A DNA stretch of 23,617 bases from a virus, in the IMG/VR virus record IMGVR_UViG_3300040801_003678, positions 1-23,617 of that record; one strand, 5' to 3'. Numbering within the stretch: the first letter of the stretch is position 1; each line of letters starts with the position of its first letter. The notes under the pieces are model-generated. The model was not told where the DNA came from. It saw only the letters and a program-made list of their open reading frames with translations, and did not search any database. Both the position numbers and the translations under genes were made by a program. This document shows positions 1 through 5,040 of this stretch, in pieces.

Positions 1-2493
1 CAGCGCCCTCTCGATCGACGCGGCGTCGATCTCGGGCGCGGTGACCGTGTCGTCGAGGATCCTGAGCGCCTCCGTCAGCTCGTCCGAGGCCGCCCGCGCG
101 GCCGCGAGCTTCTGCTCGGCGTTCCGCAGCCCGGCTTCCGCCGCCATGAGGTCGCCTTCGGCCTGCATCCTGAGCGGGTTGACGATGCCGCTCGCGAACT
201 CCGGGTTGGCGTCCAAGGCCGCGCGGGCGGCCTCGACCTCCGCGCGGTAGAGGGCGACTTCCTCGCGGAGATGCGCGAGGCGCTCGGGCGTCGGAAGGTG
301 CTGCGCGCCGGCGTACTCCTGCACCGTGCCCGCGGCGGCGCGGAGCGCCGGGTTGTCCGGCAGCAGGGCGGGCTCCACGGGGGCAGGGCTTCCATGGACA
401 ACCTCGTTGAGCCTCTCGTAGACCCCCATCAAACGCTCCATGCCCGGAACGGCCCGGAGGGCTCCATTCATCGAGCGGAGGTTGTCCTGCTGGAACTGCC
501 GCAGCTGTTCCGGGTCGTCCGGGACGTTCCGGAGGGCGAAGTAGGTGGGCACGCCGCCGAGAAAGGCGCGGCCGGTCATCCGGCCGATGCTTCGACGAAT
601 GGCTTCGGACTTGGTGCCGACATGGGACGCCAGGCGGGTCATTTCGTCGGATGCGCCGACGCGGAACCCCTGGAACCGACCGAGCGCGGGTCCGAAGCTC
701 GGCCCGCCGGCGAGGCGGCGGACGCCGGCGTCGACCCCGAGGAGGTCGCCGGCGGCGAAGGCCGCGCGGGCGCCCAGCCCGATCATGCCGAAGCGCAGCA
801 CGGCCAGCGTGCCGATCAGGCCGGCGGCCGCCGTCAGCAGCGCGCCGCCCACGACGAGCAAACCGCCAAGGGCGAAGGCGGCCGTCATGATCGTCTTCGT
901 GAGCTTGGGGTTCTCCTTGGTCCAGCGGGTTATGCGTTCGATTATCCCGCTCGCGCTCTCCAGGAGTTCGTTGAACGCGGGAAGCAAGGCGTCGCCGAGC
1001 GTGACGCCTAGTCGGCTCATCTGATTTCGGACCAGCTGCATCTCGTTGGCGGTGGTCGCGGCCCGCTTGGCGTATTCCTCCTCCGCGCTTCCGAGATACT
1101 GTCGTTCCTCCGCGACCAGGCCCAACAGCTCGGGCAGCAATTCGGCGTTGTTGACCAACTTCGTCAGCTCGCGCGCCTCGTCCCCGAACAGATCGCTCAT
1201 CGCCGAGGCGCGCAGGTGCTCGGGCAGCTCGCGCATGCGCGACAATACCATGTCCGTCGTCGCGACGGCGTCCTGCTGCATACGCTCGGCAACGCCCGAG
1301 GCACCGAACACACCCCGCTGCCGCGCGGTCGCGCTGTCGCCCCGGGTGAGCGCCCGGCCCATTGCCCGGAACGAGGTGGCCGCCGTGTCCGCGCCAGCCC
1401 CGGCCGCGATCATCGCGGCGCCATAGGCCAGCGTCTCCTCGGGGTCGAAGCCGTATGTCTCGCCCGATGAGCCGGCACGGTTCATGAAGTCCAGGGTCTG
1501 ATCCGCCCGGGCGGCGGACTCGTTGGACAGGTGATTGATGGCGTCGAACAGCGAACCGGTTTCGTCCAGCGTCAGCCCGAGGGCGGTCTTGATGCCGGCC
1601 ATCGCCTGGCCCGCGCTGTCGGCCGAGATGTCGAACGCCACGCCGATCTTCGCGGCCATCTCGGTGAAGCGAAGAAGGTCGTCGTTGGCGATCCCCGACT
1701 GCCCGCCGGCGGCCACGATCTGCGCCAGCCCCTCGGCGGCGATCGGGATCCGAGTGGACAAAGTCAGGATATCGTCCGACATCGCCGCGAATGCCTCGGG
1801 CGTCTCGAAGTCCACGACCTTGAGCACGTCGGACATCGCAGTCTCGAAGGCGATCGCCTGCTGAACGGGCCCGGACAGAGCCGTCACGATGCGGCGACCG
1901 GTCTGGATCCCGGCATAGCCTGCGAACGACATGTTGCCGGCCGTGGATAGGGAACGGTCCATCTGGCGGCGGCCTTCGGCGATGCGCCCCTGCATTCGCT
2001 CAAGGCGCCGCATCCTGTCGACTTGGCGACCGAAGGACGTGGTGGCGCCGTCGAGCGTGCGCTCGAGACGTCGCTGCTCTCCGACGAGGTCGGCCGTGTC
2101 GACGCCCGCCTCGCGCAGCTGCGTGTTGAGGCCCGACAGCGCGCGGCGGTTCGCCCCATGGGTCTGCTCGAGGCGCTCGGCGGATCGGCGGGCCCGGTCG
2201 AACTCCCGGCGCATGGCGGCGGTGGGCCGTTCCGTCCGCGTGAGCTCCAGCTTGAGCCGACGCGCGTCCTCCCGGGCCCTCGCGAGGGCCTCCCCCGACC
2301 GGGTGACGACCTCGCGCTGCCTGCGGAAATCCTCGATCAGCTTCAAGGGCCCGCGCATCTGTTGAAGCCGGCCCATCTGGGTGCGGACCCCGTCCGCGAA
2401 CCGTCCCGTGACGGTCCGCATTCCGCTCAGAACGGTCGAATACCGATCGACCGCCTTGATCGTGAGTTGCGTTTCGATTTTCCGGGACGACAT
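1..2493 (-). CDS. Tail tape measure protein T (partial, N-terminal 831 residues)
   Basis: The frame is open from ATG at 2493 to the left edge, 831 codons with no stop. Residues 1-45 form a short opening (KIETQLTIKAVDRYS); about 50-190 is a long coiled coil rich in R, E and L. The tape-measure core at about 195-500 includes FETAMSDVLKVVDFETPEAF, GLAQIVAAGGQSGI, AMAGIKTALGL and the late QMSRLGVTLGDALLPAFNEL motif seen in TP901-type tape measures. Hydrophobic segments at about 535-585 (TAAFALGGLLVVGGALL) follow, then more coiled coil. It sets tail length and is expected to be chaperoned by E/E'. AAGAAAAGG lies about ten bases before the ATG. Confidence 0.9.
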   Translation of the reverse strand, partial: MSSRKIETQLTIKAVDRYSTVLSGMRTVTGRFADGVRTQMGRLQQMRGPLKLIEDFRRQREVVTRSGEALARAREDARRLKLELTRTERPTAAMRREFDRARRSAERLEQTHGANRRALSGLNTQLREAGVDTADLVGEQRRLERTLDGATTSFGRQVDRMRRLERMQGRIAEGRRQMDRSLSTAGNMSFAGYAGIQTGRRIVTALSGPVQQAIAFETAMSDVLKVVDFETPEAFAAMSDDILTLSTRIPIAAEGLAQIVAAGGQSGIANDDLLRFTEMAAKIGVAFDISADSAGQAMAGIKTALGLTLDETGSLFDAINHLSNESAARADQTLDFMNRAGSSGETYGFDPEETLAYGAAMIAAGAGADTAATSFRAMGRALTRGDSATARQRGVFGASGVAERMQQDAVATTDMVLSRMRELPEHLRASAMSDLFGDEARELTKLVNNAELLPELLGLVAEERQYLGSAEEEYAKRAATTANEMQLVRNQMSRLGVTLGDALLPAFNELLESASGIIERITRWTKENPKLTKTIMTAAFALGGLLVVGGALLTAAAGLIGTLAVLRFGMIGLGARAAFAAGDLLGVDAGVRRLAGGPSFGPALGRFQGFRVGASDEMTRLASHVGTKSEAIRRSIGRMTGRAFLGGVPTYFALRNVPDDPEQLRQFQQDNLRSMNGALRAVPGMERLMGVYERLNEVVHGSPAPVEPALLPDNPALRAAAGTVQEYAGAQHLPTPERLAHLREEVALYRAEVEAARAALDANPEFASGIVNPLRMQAEGDLMAAEAGLRNAEQKLAAARAASDELTEALRILDDTVTAPEIDAASIERAL

Positions 2494-2545
2494 TTCGGCG
2501 GGGCCTTTTCTTGATTTGACCGTCAACGAACGCCATGTCGGACGT

Positions 2546-2776
2546 ATGGAATTCGTTTTCTTACTATTCGGGCTGCTGTTCTTCGGCTGCGTTGTCGCAG
2601 TCTGCTTCGTGTTCGGAATGGCCTTCGGCAGCGTCTGGGCCGGACTGGCGCTCTTCGGCGCGCTCTATGGCTTCTACCGCCTGGCGACGCGGGATGAGGG
2701 TCAGCCCCCATCGATGGCCCCCGACACGCTGAACGCGTTCCAGCAACCCCTGTCCGACGAGACGCGCGATTCCTAG
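2546..2776 (+). CDS. Plus-strand small membrane protein (probable moron)
   Basis: A 76-aa protein and the only supported plus-strand gene. It has two membrane segments, about residues 3-28 (FVFLLFGLLFFGCVVAVCFVF) and 30-47 (VWAGLALFGALYGFYRLA), and a polar C-terminal tail. Sixty-two of 76 codons end in G or C, matching coding usage of this genome, while the opposite strand here has no credible gene. The first 60 bases are less GC-rich than the neighbours. It lies in a gap between E' and the tape measure gene, where P2-like phages usually have none. Its TAG shares a CTAG palindrome with the E' stop. The ribosome site (GGA) and promoter are weak. The function is unknown; superinfection exclusion would be a typical moron role. 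Confidence 0.6.
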   Translation: MEFVFLLFGLLFFGCVVAVCFVFGMAFGSVWAGLALFGALYGFYRLATRDEGQPPSMAPDTLNAFQQPLSDETRDS

Positions 2777-3215
2777 AGGGGCCGGGTCGCCTCCAGGACC
2801 CGCCCCGCCGCCTCCTGCCAGCGTTCGAACTCGCCGATCTTCATCCGAAGGACATATGGCAGCGGCGCGTTGAGCGCGCGCGCCACCAACCCCGCGGCGG
2901 CCCGCAGCTCGTGCGCTATGCCGCCGGGCTCTCGTTTCCCACCGCTCCGCCCCTCGCCGCGGCGACTCCGTCCTGGTACGGGGTCATGACGTCTCGCATG
3001 ATCGTCTCGACGTCGCGCTCCTTGATCTTGAGGACGACCTCGCGATCCACGCCGGCCATGCCCGCCAGCAGGATCACCGTCTGATCGGTCGCCTTTTCGG
3101 CTTCCTCGACGGCGATGCTGGTGCCGAGGTCCGGCTCGTCGAAGGTCAGTTCGTCGTAGGTCGTCCCATCGACGCTGACCGGCTTCTTCAGCTTGATCGT
3201 GATCGGCAGCTTCAT
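2773..3215 (-). CDS. Tail assembly chaperone E-E' (-1 frameshift product)
   Basis: A 147-aa fusion made by a -1 shift at the heptamer on 2940-2934. The first 94 residues are E; the ribosome then continues in the -1 frame from 2934 for 53 codons to a TAG at 2775-2773. The E' part has no start codon of its own. Its sequence (for example ALNAPLPYVLRMKIGEFERW) fits the short, Trp-containing C-terminal extensions of chaperones in P2-like phages, which end in a helix with an M-x-x-x-E-x-x-x-W spacing. The extension is thought to recruit the tape measure protein. In-phase slippery site, open -1 frame and conserved gene order together make this strong. Confidence 0.85.
2916..3215 (-). CDS. Tail assembly chaperone E (short, unshifted form)
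   Basis: A 99-aa tail assembly chaperone of the P2 gpE kind (91 aa in P2). The start KLPITIKLKKPVSVDGTTYDELTFDEP is the typical beta-rich opening of this family, followed by helices (AVEEAEKATDQTVILLAGMAG, then VVLKIKERDVETIMRDVMTPY). GAGGGAG precedes the ATG at 3215; the frame is open upstream but overlaps the tube gene. Six codons before its TAG lies an in-phase slippery heptamer, so a fraction of ribosomes should make a longer product. The two forms coat the tape measure protein during tube assembly. Confidence 0.88.
   Translation of the reverse strand: MKLPITIKLKKPVSVDGTTYDELTFDEPDLGTSIAVEEAEKATDQTVILLAGMAGVDREVVLKIKERDVETIMRDVMTPYQDGVAAARGGAVGNESPAA
2934..2940 (-). promoter_or_regulatory. 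Slippery heptamer GGGAAAC for -1 ribosomal frameshifting
   Basis: Reads G GGA AAC in the zero frame, the canonical X XXY YYZ form and one base from the GGGAAAG of the lambda G-T chaperone. About nine bases downstream a GC-rich stem can form (CCCGGCGGC with a GCCGCC-GCGGG arm and one bulge), a possible stimulator. The zero-frame stop follows six codons later. Confidence 0.85.
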
Positions 3216-3226
3216 CGGATGCTCCC

Positions 3227-3739
3227 TCAATCCAGCAGCAGCGCGGCGCGGATGTCGCCGTACTGGCTCGCGCCGTTTATGATCACGTCGAAATCGTCGG
3301 CGGTGATCTTGTTGACGCCGCCGATGTCGAGCTTGAGGTAATCCCACTCGAACGTCACGTCGATCGCCTCGATCTTCTCACCGGACTTCCACTCCTCGAA
3401 GTCGATACCCTCGTTGAAGCCGCGCATGTAGGCGGTCGCGTTCGTGACCGTGCCGTCCTCGTCGACCAGCGCGCCGGTGATCATCAGCGTGTCGGTCGAC
3501 CCGGGCCTGAGGTTGATCGCGCCGACCACCTGCGGGTCCAGGCCCATCTGCTTGAATTTCGCCGGTTCGCGCACGTACCCGTAGCGCGCCTTGCGATCGG
3601 TCATCATGCCCGCGTTGCGGAACTGTTCGGTCTTGGCCTTCAGGGGCGGAATGGTCATCGCCGTCGCCTGGCCGACCTTGAGGTCTTCGTTGAACCACAG
3701 GGCGCAGTCGCGAAGGATGTATGCTGGGGTGGATTTCAT
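3227..3739 (-). CDS. Major tail tube protein (P2 gpFII family)
   Basis: A 170-aa protein, as in P2 FII (172 aa). It has AYILRDCALWFNEDLKVGQATAMTIPPL at the start and the central EEWKSGEKIEAIDVTFEWDYLKLDIGG, which is distinctive for this tube family. It polymerises inside the sheath as the DNA conduit. AGGAG precedes the ATG at 3739. The next gene starts 11 bases after its stop. Confidence 0.93.
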   Translation of the reverse strand: MKSTPAYILRDCALWFNEDLKVGQATAMTIPPLKAKTEQFRNAGMMTDRKARYGYVREPAKFKQMGLDPQVVGAINLRPGSTDTLMITGALVDEDGTVTNATAYMRGFNEGIDFEEWKSGEKIEAIDVTFEWDYLKLDIGGVNKITADDFDVIINGASQYGDIRAALLLD

Positions 3740-3861: not shown

Positions 3862-5040
3862 TCAGGCGGCGGACTTGAGCGCGTCTCGGGTCAGCTCCAG
3901 GTAGTACTCGATGTTGCGGTGCGCGGTGAAGCGGATGTCTTCCATCGGCGCCGGCGGCTCGAAATCCAGCGAGAAGGTGATCTTCCCGGCCGCCATCTCC
4001 GTGGGCTCGTTCTGCGCCTCGTCGATCCAGACGCGACCGCCGAGTATCGCGCCGTCCTCCTTGAACGTCCTCAGCGCCGCGTTCCCGGACTCGAGCATGA
4101 ACCTCAGGTTCGCCTTCGAGAACGGCTTGTCCACGAATTCCAGATACGCCTTCTCGATGGCCTCGTTTATGAAGTCCGCGGTCCGGCGGACGCACAGGAA
4201 CGCCCAGAGGTCGTCCGACGTGGCAGGCCGGTTGCCCCAGGTGAGGAACCCGCTGCCCAGGTTGACGATCGTGCCGACATGCGCCTGGTTGAGCAAATTG
4301 GACTGCGCGGGGTAGGTCACCGTGCGCGAGACCCCGACGATCCCGTTGATCGCTTTGTTGGACAGAGAGTGCCAGAACCCGAGCTTGACGTCGACGCGGG
4401 CCTGGACGCCGGCGAAGCGCGCCGAAGCAGGCCGCGCGACGGTCGCGGCTGCCGTGGTGTCGTAGACCATGACCTTCGGATCGACGACGTAGACGCGCTG
4501 CGACGCGATCAGGGCGCGATAGGCGAGCGCGTCGGCGTCGGTCGTGTCGGGCCCGTCGACGAAGGCGACGGCGCGCAGCTTATCGAGCACGCCGATCAGC
4601 TCGGCGACCACCGGGTTCGCCGTCTCGCCGTCGCCGCTGGTGAAGCCGGGGGCGGCGATCAGCCGGGGCTTGAGCCCGAGCTGCGGTTCGGCCTTCAGCA
4701 GGGCGTGCACCCCGGTCGACTTCGTCTCGTCGCCGACCAGGTTCGCGATCGTCGCAGCGGCGTTCTCGCCTTCCTCGACTCGGACGACGATCGTGTAGGC
4801 GCCGATCTGGTCGAACACGTCGTCGACGGCGTCCTTGAGGGTGCCGGCGCTTCCCAGGCCGGCCGCGGCCTCGGGGCGCCCCGGCAGCAGCACCGGCGTG
4901 TTGAGCGGGAACGCGTCCTCGTCGGCGTCAGGTGCGGTGCCCAGCAGGCCCACGACGGCGGACTGGGCGACCTGGACGAGAACCGGGCCCTCGCTCGACT
5001 CTCGGAGCCGGGTGCCGTGGTGGAAAGATTGAAAGGACAT
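3862..5040 (-). CDS. Tail sheath protein (P2 gpFI family)
   Basis: A 392-aa contractile sheath subunit, about the size of P2 FI (396 aa). Family features: an N-terminal FHHGTRLRE followed by VAQSAVVGLLGTAPDAD, the KPRLIAAPGFTS segment near residue 130, SRTVTYPAQSNLLNQAHVGTI and FLTWGNRP in the middle, and a C-terminal domain with FEPPAPMEDIRFTAHRN, the strand that interlocks sheath rings. AGGAG is six bases before the ATG. Upstream and downstream gaps both contain hairpins and poly-C tracts. Confidence 0.93.
   Translation of the reverse strand: MSFQSFHHGTRLRESSEGPVLVQVAQSAVVGLLGTAPDADEDAFPLNTPVLLPGRPEAAAGLGSAGTLKDAVDDVFDQIGAYTIVVRVEEGENAAATIANLVGDETKSTGVHALLKAEPQLGLKPRLIAAPGFTSGDGETANPVVAELIGVLDKLRAVAFVDGPDTTDADALAYRALIASQRVYVVDPKVMVYDTTAAATVARPASARFAGVQARVDVKLGFWHSLSNKAINGIVGVSRTVTYPAQSNLLNQAHVGTIVNLGSGFLTWGNRPATSDDLWAFLCVRRTADFINEAIEKAYLEFVDKPFSKANLRFMLESGNAALRTFKEDGAILGGRVWIDEAQNEPTEMAAGKITFSLDFEPPAPMEDIRFTAHRNIEYYLELTRDALKSAA

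Follow-up and report, generated by a model that had tools for sequence, protein, structure and literature searches.

Does the tail chaperone gene E of this phage end at its stop codon, or do some ribosomes shift into the -1 frame near that stop and continue into a second domain, E'? The window, by which we mean the whole stretch of 23,617 nt analyzed (positions 1-23,617 of IMG/VR record IMGVR_UViG_3300040801_003678), carries on its minus strand the tail module of a contractile-tailed phage, as judged by Pfam matches, with sheath, tube, E, E', and tape measure in the same order as in P2; the phage probably infects Alphaproteobacteria, judging from its named relatives (Paracoccus, Agrobacterium). 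The features that matter here are the following.

3862-5040, minus strand: sheath (PF04984)
3227-3739, minus strand: major tail tube protein, upstream neighbor of E (PF04985 Phage_tube, E=1.1e-21)
2916-3215, minus strand: gene E, putative tail assembly chaperone, 0-frame product of 99 aa, from ATG at 3215 to TAG at 2916
2934-2940, minus strand: slippery heptamer G_GGA_AAC (GGGAAAC), in phase with E
2773-2933, minus strand: E' extension, predicted three-helix domain, 53 codons in the -1 frame and then TAG at 2773-2775
2546-2776, plus strand: small membrane-protein gene between E' and the tape measure, with homologs at the same place in relatives
1-2493, minus strand: tape-measure protein, downstream neighbor, ATG at 2491-2493, running off the window (PF10145 PhageMin_Tail, E=8.3e-33)

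Gene E thus lies between the tail tube (PF04985) and tape-measure (PF10145) genes, and its 0-frame product falls into PF10109 Phage_TAC_7 (E=1.6e-9; 38.1 bits against a cut-off of 25), a family of tail assembly chaperones that takes its name from protein E; it also matches PHROG 166, a tail protein. In the AlphaFold2 model, E is folded to about residue 89, with a pLDDT of about 90 or more over residues 1-80, and residues 90-99 are disordered; a Foldseek search of the PDB with this model gave no significant match, the HK97 tail chaperone 2ob9 appearing only at E=3.2.

A sequence-only reading of this DNA had proposed a -1 slip site at GGGAAAC near the end of E, and the heptamer is indeed exactly in phase, at 2934-2940 of the minus strand. 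The distance of six codons that it gave to the end of E is right as a position, but only five of these are sense codons and the sixth is the TAG itself. Slippage here would re-pair the P-site Gly codon GGA as GGG and the A-site Asn codon AAC as AAA, and beyond the heptamer the -1 frame is open for the predicted 53 codons to TAG 2773-2775. A single sequence is nonetheless weak evidence, because the word GGGAAAC turns up at about the expected frequency (observed 2, expected 1.7) and the GC-rich E is free of -1-frame stops along its entire length. We then counted ORFs that combine an in-phase heptamer among their final 30 codons with a -1 extension of at least 20 codons: of the 130 window ORFs of at least 100 codons only E qualified, as did 4 of 164 non-E ORFs from the relatives. 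When the E tail was reshuffled synonymously, about 2.3% of the shuffled versions gave an in-phase heptamer, counting the heptamer alone. Judged from the aligned sequences, the combination in E is not due to chance, and it is the homologs that are decisive.

A direct scan with E alone gave no viral match, and its sole genome match (L002) proved spurious, the surroundings reading as an opposite-strand ABC-ATPase-like gene. Since E is fast-evolving, the tail tube was chosen as the search anchor, and two tail-tube scans provided a set of 18 related loci whose tubes are 46-75% identical. Specifically, i) all 18 have the identical GGGAAAC in phase, 1 to 6 codons before the E stop, followed by a homologous -1 product of 54-59 aa, and within an E end that is otherwise highly variable the eight bases GGGAAACG are invariant; ii) window E' as a single query found no match, but a profile of the E' family, which is independent of the tube scans and not conditioned on any heptamer, found 24 loci, 8 of them on new contigs, every one with GGGAAAC in phase at the E/E' junction; and iii) with a wider tube profile, an in-phase heptamer and a -1 extension accompany all 42 complete E homologs found by the E profile, a count that excludes L053 (cut by a contig end), duplicate loci, and some 26 tube-bearing loci without a match to the E profile. 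The heptamers among the 42 are GGGAAAC (25), CCCAAAC (5), CCCAAAT (3), GGGAAAG (4), TTTTTTG (3), and TTTTTTA (2), the three with TTTTTTG being the distant relatives L054, L055, and L077; outside this set, Wolbachia phage WO has TTTTTTG as well. From 385 genomes sampled evenly across the class, only distant tail tubes were recovered. We looked in particular for homologs that lack the heptamer or have stops in the -1 frame, and found that the 18 and the 24 retain the heptamer and an open -1 frame without exception.

Downstream of the E stop codon, the -1 frame has a pN/pS of 0.45, compared with 1.19 and 1.68 for the other two frames, and its third positions vary more (0.50) than its second positions (0.20). 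This coding signature, confined to its own frame, marks the -1 region as part of a gene. Thirteen of the 18 relatives have a stop in the -1 frame no more than 30 codons upstream of the heptamer, and in 10 of these the distance is 2 to 5 codons, so that the frame change must be confined to the heptamer or a few codons around it. Modeled alone by AlphaFold2, E' forms three helices with a mean pLDDT of 90; since the E tail is disordered and E' folds by itself, the slip site falls in a linker, and on these models its position is as expected for a frameshift that adds a domain. The predicted masses, 10.6 kDa for E and 15.9 kDa for the 147-aa E-E', agree with the forms of about 11 and 16 kDa that had been anticipated.

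The relationships of E' itself are distant. A profile of the family aligned by hhalign with that of the TTTTTTG-type (P2-like) E' (90%, E=1.6e-6) suggests that the two are remotely related; one of 12 E' members matches PF06528 (P2 GpE), weakly (E=0.13), as does one TTTTTTG-type E', only below the cut-off, and window E' itself had no match reaching a Pfam cut-off. Among the small viral models that fit E' most closely is gp41.5 of the Mu-like phage D108 (TM 0.87 by target, rmsd 1.0, E 0.67), which sits between gp41 and the tape measure; the Foldseek matches of both E' and E are weak in E-value.

The most serious alternative is that E' is a separate translation product, made by ribosomes that re-initiate beyond the E stop on an internal ATG, GTG, or TTG. 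The earlier statement that the extension has no start codon was too strong, as window E' has a TTG at codon 17, a GTG at codon 18, and an ATG at codon 32, and annotators have given E' a start of its own in both Paracoccus phage Pyei1 and Wolbachia phage WO; what does stand is that these codons come too late to supply the whole domain. In the relatives no start codon occurs before E' codon 9, the first half of E' is without any conserved start codon, and in five of them (L007-L010 and L012) the first start comes no earlier than codon 29 of 57-58, where initiation would remove helix 1 even though the earlier codons are conserved; re-initiation therefore cannot supply the whole domain, and we consider it a very unlikely source of E'. 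The conserved -1 coding extension thus has no start of its own for the whole domain. Taken alone, the window, where the -1 frame is open through all of E, might suggest that this frame lacks stops simply as a result of high GC and that E' is not made at all, but the conservation of the E' sequence, the codon periodicity in the -1 frame only, the confident predicted fold, and the presence of the heptamer in all 24 homologs found from E' alone leave this reading scarcely credible.

To each of two further explanations we give almost no weight. One sequence with two overlapping frames may resemble an indel, and the arrangement could then be a degraded or mis-sequenced fused gene; the same arrangement recurs in 18 relatives, and both segments are under purifying selection, which makes a pseudogene or sequencing error extremely improbable. 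Slippage by RNA polymerase needs long homopolymer runs, by which standard the three G and three A of GGGAAA are far too short, and the invariant XXXYYYZ phase obeys the ribosomal rule; so although transcriptional slippage does serve some recoded genes (review, PMC5009743), it can hardly be what changes the frame here. Programmed -1 ribosomal frameshifting that produces both E and E-E' explains the observations far better than any of these, and with it the 18 tube-anchored and the 24 E'-anchored homologs all agree, and we regard it as highly probable that the tail operon works in this way; the slippage and its rate are what we infer from these data.

According to the frameshift model, the majority of ribosomes would translate E (99 aa) and terminate at TAG 2916, and a minority would pause on G_GGA_AAC with tRNA-Gly on GGA and tRNA-Asn on AAC; a tandem slip one base back would move tRNA-Gly to GGG and tRNA-Asn to AAA, after which a further 53 codons, read in the -1 frame, would complete E-E' (147 aa, 15.9 kDa), the slip rate setting the ratio of E to E-E'. 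By analogy with lambda gpG/gpGT (review, PMC5009743), E would coat the tape-measure protein and the E' domain would recruit tail-tube subunits; it is from this analogy that we infer chaperone roles for E and E'.

The sequence-only reading had also suggested that a bulged GC-rich stem downstream may stimulate slippage, and this suggestion finds no support. In a test confined to stem-loop structures, folding energies of the downstream region were no better than those of shuffles (z 0.0 to -1.1), and covariation was absent from the alignment (covariation term 0.06); nor was a conserved Shine-Dalgarno-like element upstream obvious by eye among the relatives. Thus no conserved downstream stem-loop was found that would mark the signal as structure-stimulated. 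P2-like phages likewise have no downstream hairpin (PMC3091744).

Tail-chaperone frameshifting is widely conserved in long-tailed phages (PMC5009743), and the precedents invoked at the outset, P2-like E-E' and lambda-like G-GT fusions, are of the same kind (PMC3091744, PMC5009743). P2 and the Burkholderia phages KS5, KS14, and KL3 resemble the window in having a contractile tail, in the order tube, E, E', and tape measure, and in the sizes of their products (E of 91-116 aa and E+E' of 142-157 aa, with a -1 shift near the end of E; PMC3091744), which are comparable to those predicted here; P2 E/E+E' also has no predicted downstream hairpin (PMC3091744). The window differs from P2 in having a gene on the opposite strand between E' and the tape measure, in the remote similarity of its E' to that of P2, and in its slip site, GGGAAAC, which is not the TTTTTTG of P2 proper (PMC3091744). 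In lambda the two chaperone forms, gpG and gpGT, arise from a single start through a -1 shift late in the first gene (PMC5009743), as is predicted for the window; unlike the window, lambda has a long non-contractile tail and differing chaperone domains. We conclude that the locus very likely belongs to the established kind of tail-chaperone frameshift exemplified by lambda G/GT and P2 E/E+E', that this arrangement is lineage-wide here, and that E-E' is its predicted product. The lambda heptamer, G_GGA_AAG, is of the same GGGAAA type as that of the window, which ends in C.

There are earlier predictions of GGGAAAC in tail genes, namely those of Caulobacter phage Colossus (PMC3556154), Burkholderia phage KL1 (PMC3483164), and halovirus HCTV-1 (PMC5009743); these three have the same tail-chaperone heptamer with no demonstrated sequence relationship to window E, and HCTV-1 and KL1 are siphoviruses according to their sources, a phage type different from that of the window. 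Closer to home, Paracoccus phage vB_PyeM_Pyei1 has the same gene order, an E found with the same profile, and an in-phase heptamer with a -1 extension, but its heptamer is GGGAAAG rather than GGGAAAC and lies 19 codons before the stop, its E' is annotated as a separate hypothetical gene, and a longer gene cassette precedes its tape measure. E of Wolbachia phage WO (L080) contains an in-phase TTTTTTG, after which the -1 frame continues for 46 codons that the record assigns to a hypothetical protein of its own; this phage probably has an unannotated E-E' frameshift. In the record of an Agrobacterium salinitolerans plasmid prophage, GGGAAAC is present and E' is unannotated, bearing out the expectation that start-codon-based annotation misses the extension; the gene model given here fixes, for the whole phage lineage, a 53-codon E' domain absent from such annotation.

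We wish to stress that the novelty is mild, as GGGAAAC and this kind of frameshift are already known, and lies in the strict use of an Asn-codon heptamer. Throughout the window lineage the A-site codon at the slip site is Asn (XXXAAAC/U), and in a sister group with closely similar E (L037, L038, L041, L042, and L044-L047) CCCAAAC alternates with CCCAAAT, changing an E' residue between Arg and Cys and keeping the A-site Asn, a natural experiment on the final heptamer position. The site can be called canonical, as had been claimed, only with a qualification: in E. coli G_GGA_AAC, which IS elements also use, is a low-efficiency motif because the A-site tRNA re-pairs non-cognately, from AAC to AAA (PMC4066793). 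The weakness of these sites may itself serve a purpose, or ribosomes of Alphaproteobacteria may not behave as those of E. coli do. We raise tentatively, as possible and rather doubtful, the idea that these phages rely on tRNA-Asn slippage (AAC/AAU to AAA) without a conserved stimulator, following a eukaryote-like rule that E. coli obeys poorly. Derivation of the C-ending heptamer from a separate host tRNA-Lys for AAG was considered, and is weakened by the GGGAAAG of Pyei1 and by the IS data (PMC4066793). The loci described here amount to a large natural set of tail-chaperone slip sites with Asn (AAC or AAU) in the A site on which rules derived from E. coli can be tested.

The -1 frame had been expected to close just before the next gene, which is not so for the tape measure, whose ATG at 2493 lies 279 nt further on; an opposite-strand ORF fills the gap. 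This gene (2546-2776, plus strand) encodes a 76-aa small membrane protein of a family of 70-96 aa with a conserved NAFQ motif, and it stands tail to tail with E', the two TAG stops overlapping within 2773-2776 of the window. It occupies the same place in 23 of the 24 E' loci, the exception being cut by a contig end. A search with the opposite-strand protein found 19 loci, 17 of which have E' adjacent by pattern; the other two are on contigs already seen (L006 and L036), with a variant E'. The protein reached no family at the Pfam cut-off and had no convincing PHROG match. It could be expressed from the prophage, for example as a superinfection-exclusion factor, and transcription of it would enter E' in antisense and might extend across the slip site.

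Upstream of this gene, 13 of 17 relatives among L003-L020 have a TTG that begins 35 bases ahead of the ATG, and hexamers resembling TATNTT frequently begin 12 bases ahead of it in the same set, a spacing by which the transcript start would coincide with the ATG to give a leaderless mRNA. The window copy at 2511-2545 (plus strand), TTGATT, 17 nt, and CATGTC, is weak and fails a consensus scan. The junction between E' and the tape measure also accommodates other genes: Pyei1 (L021, 4940-7649) has Arc-like DNA-binding and KilAC/Rha antirepressor genes there, and L005 an extra membrane-like ORF of 230 aa, so the junction looks like a hot spot for extra genes.
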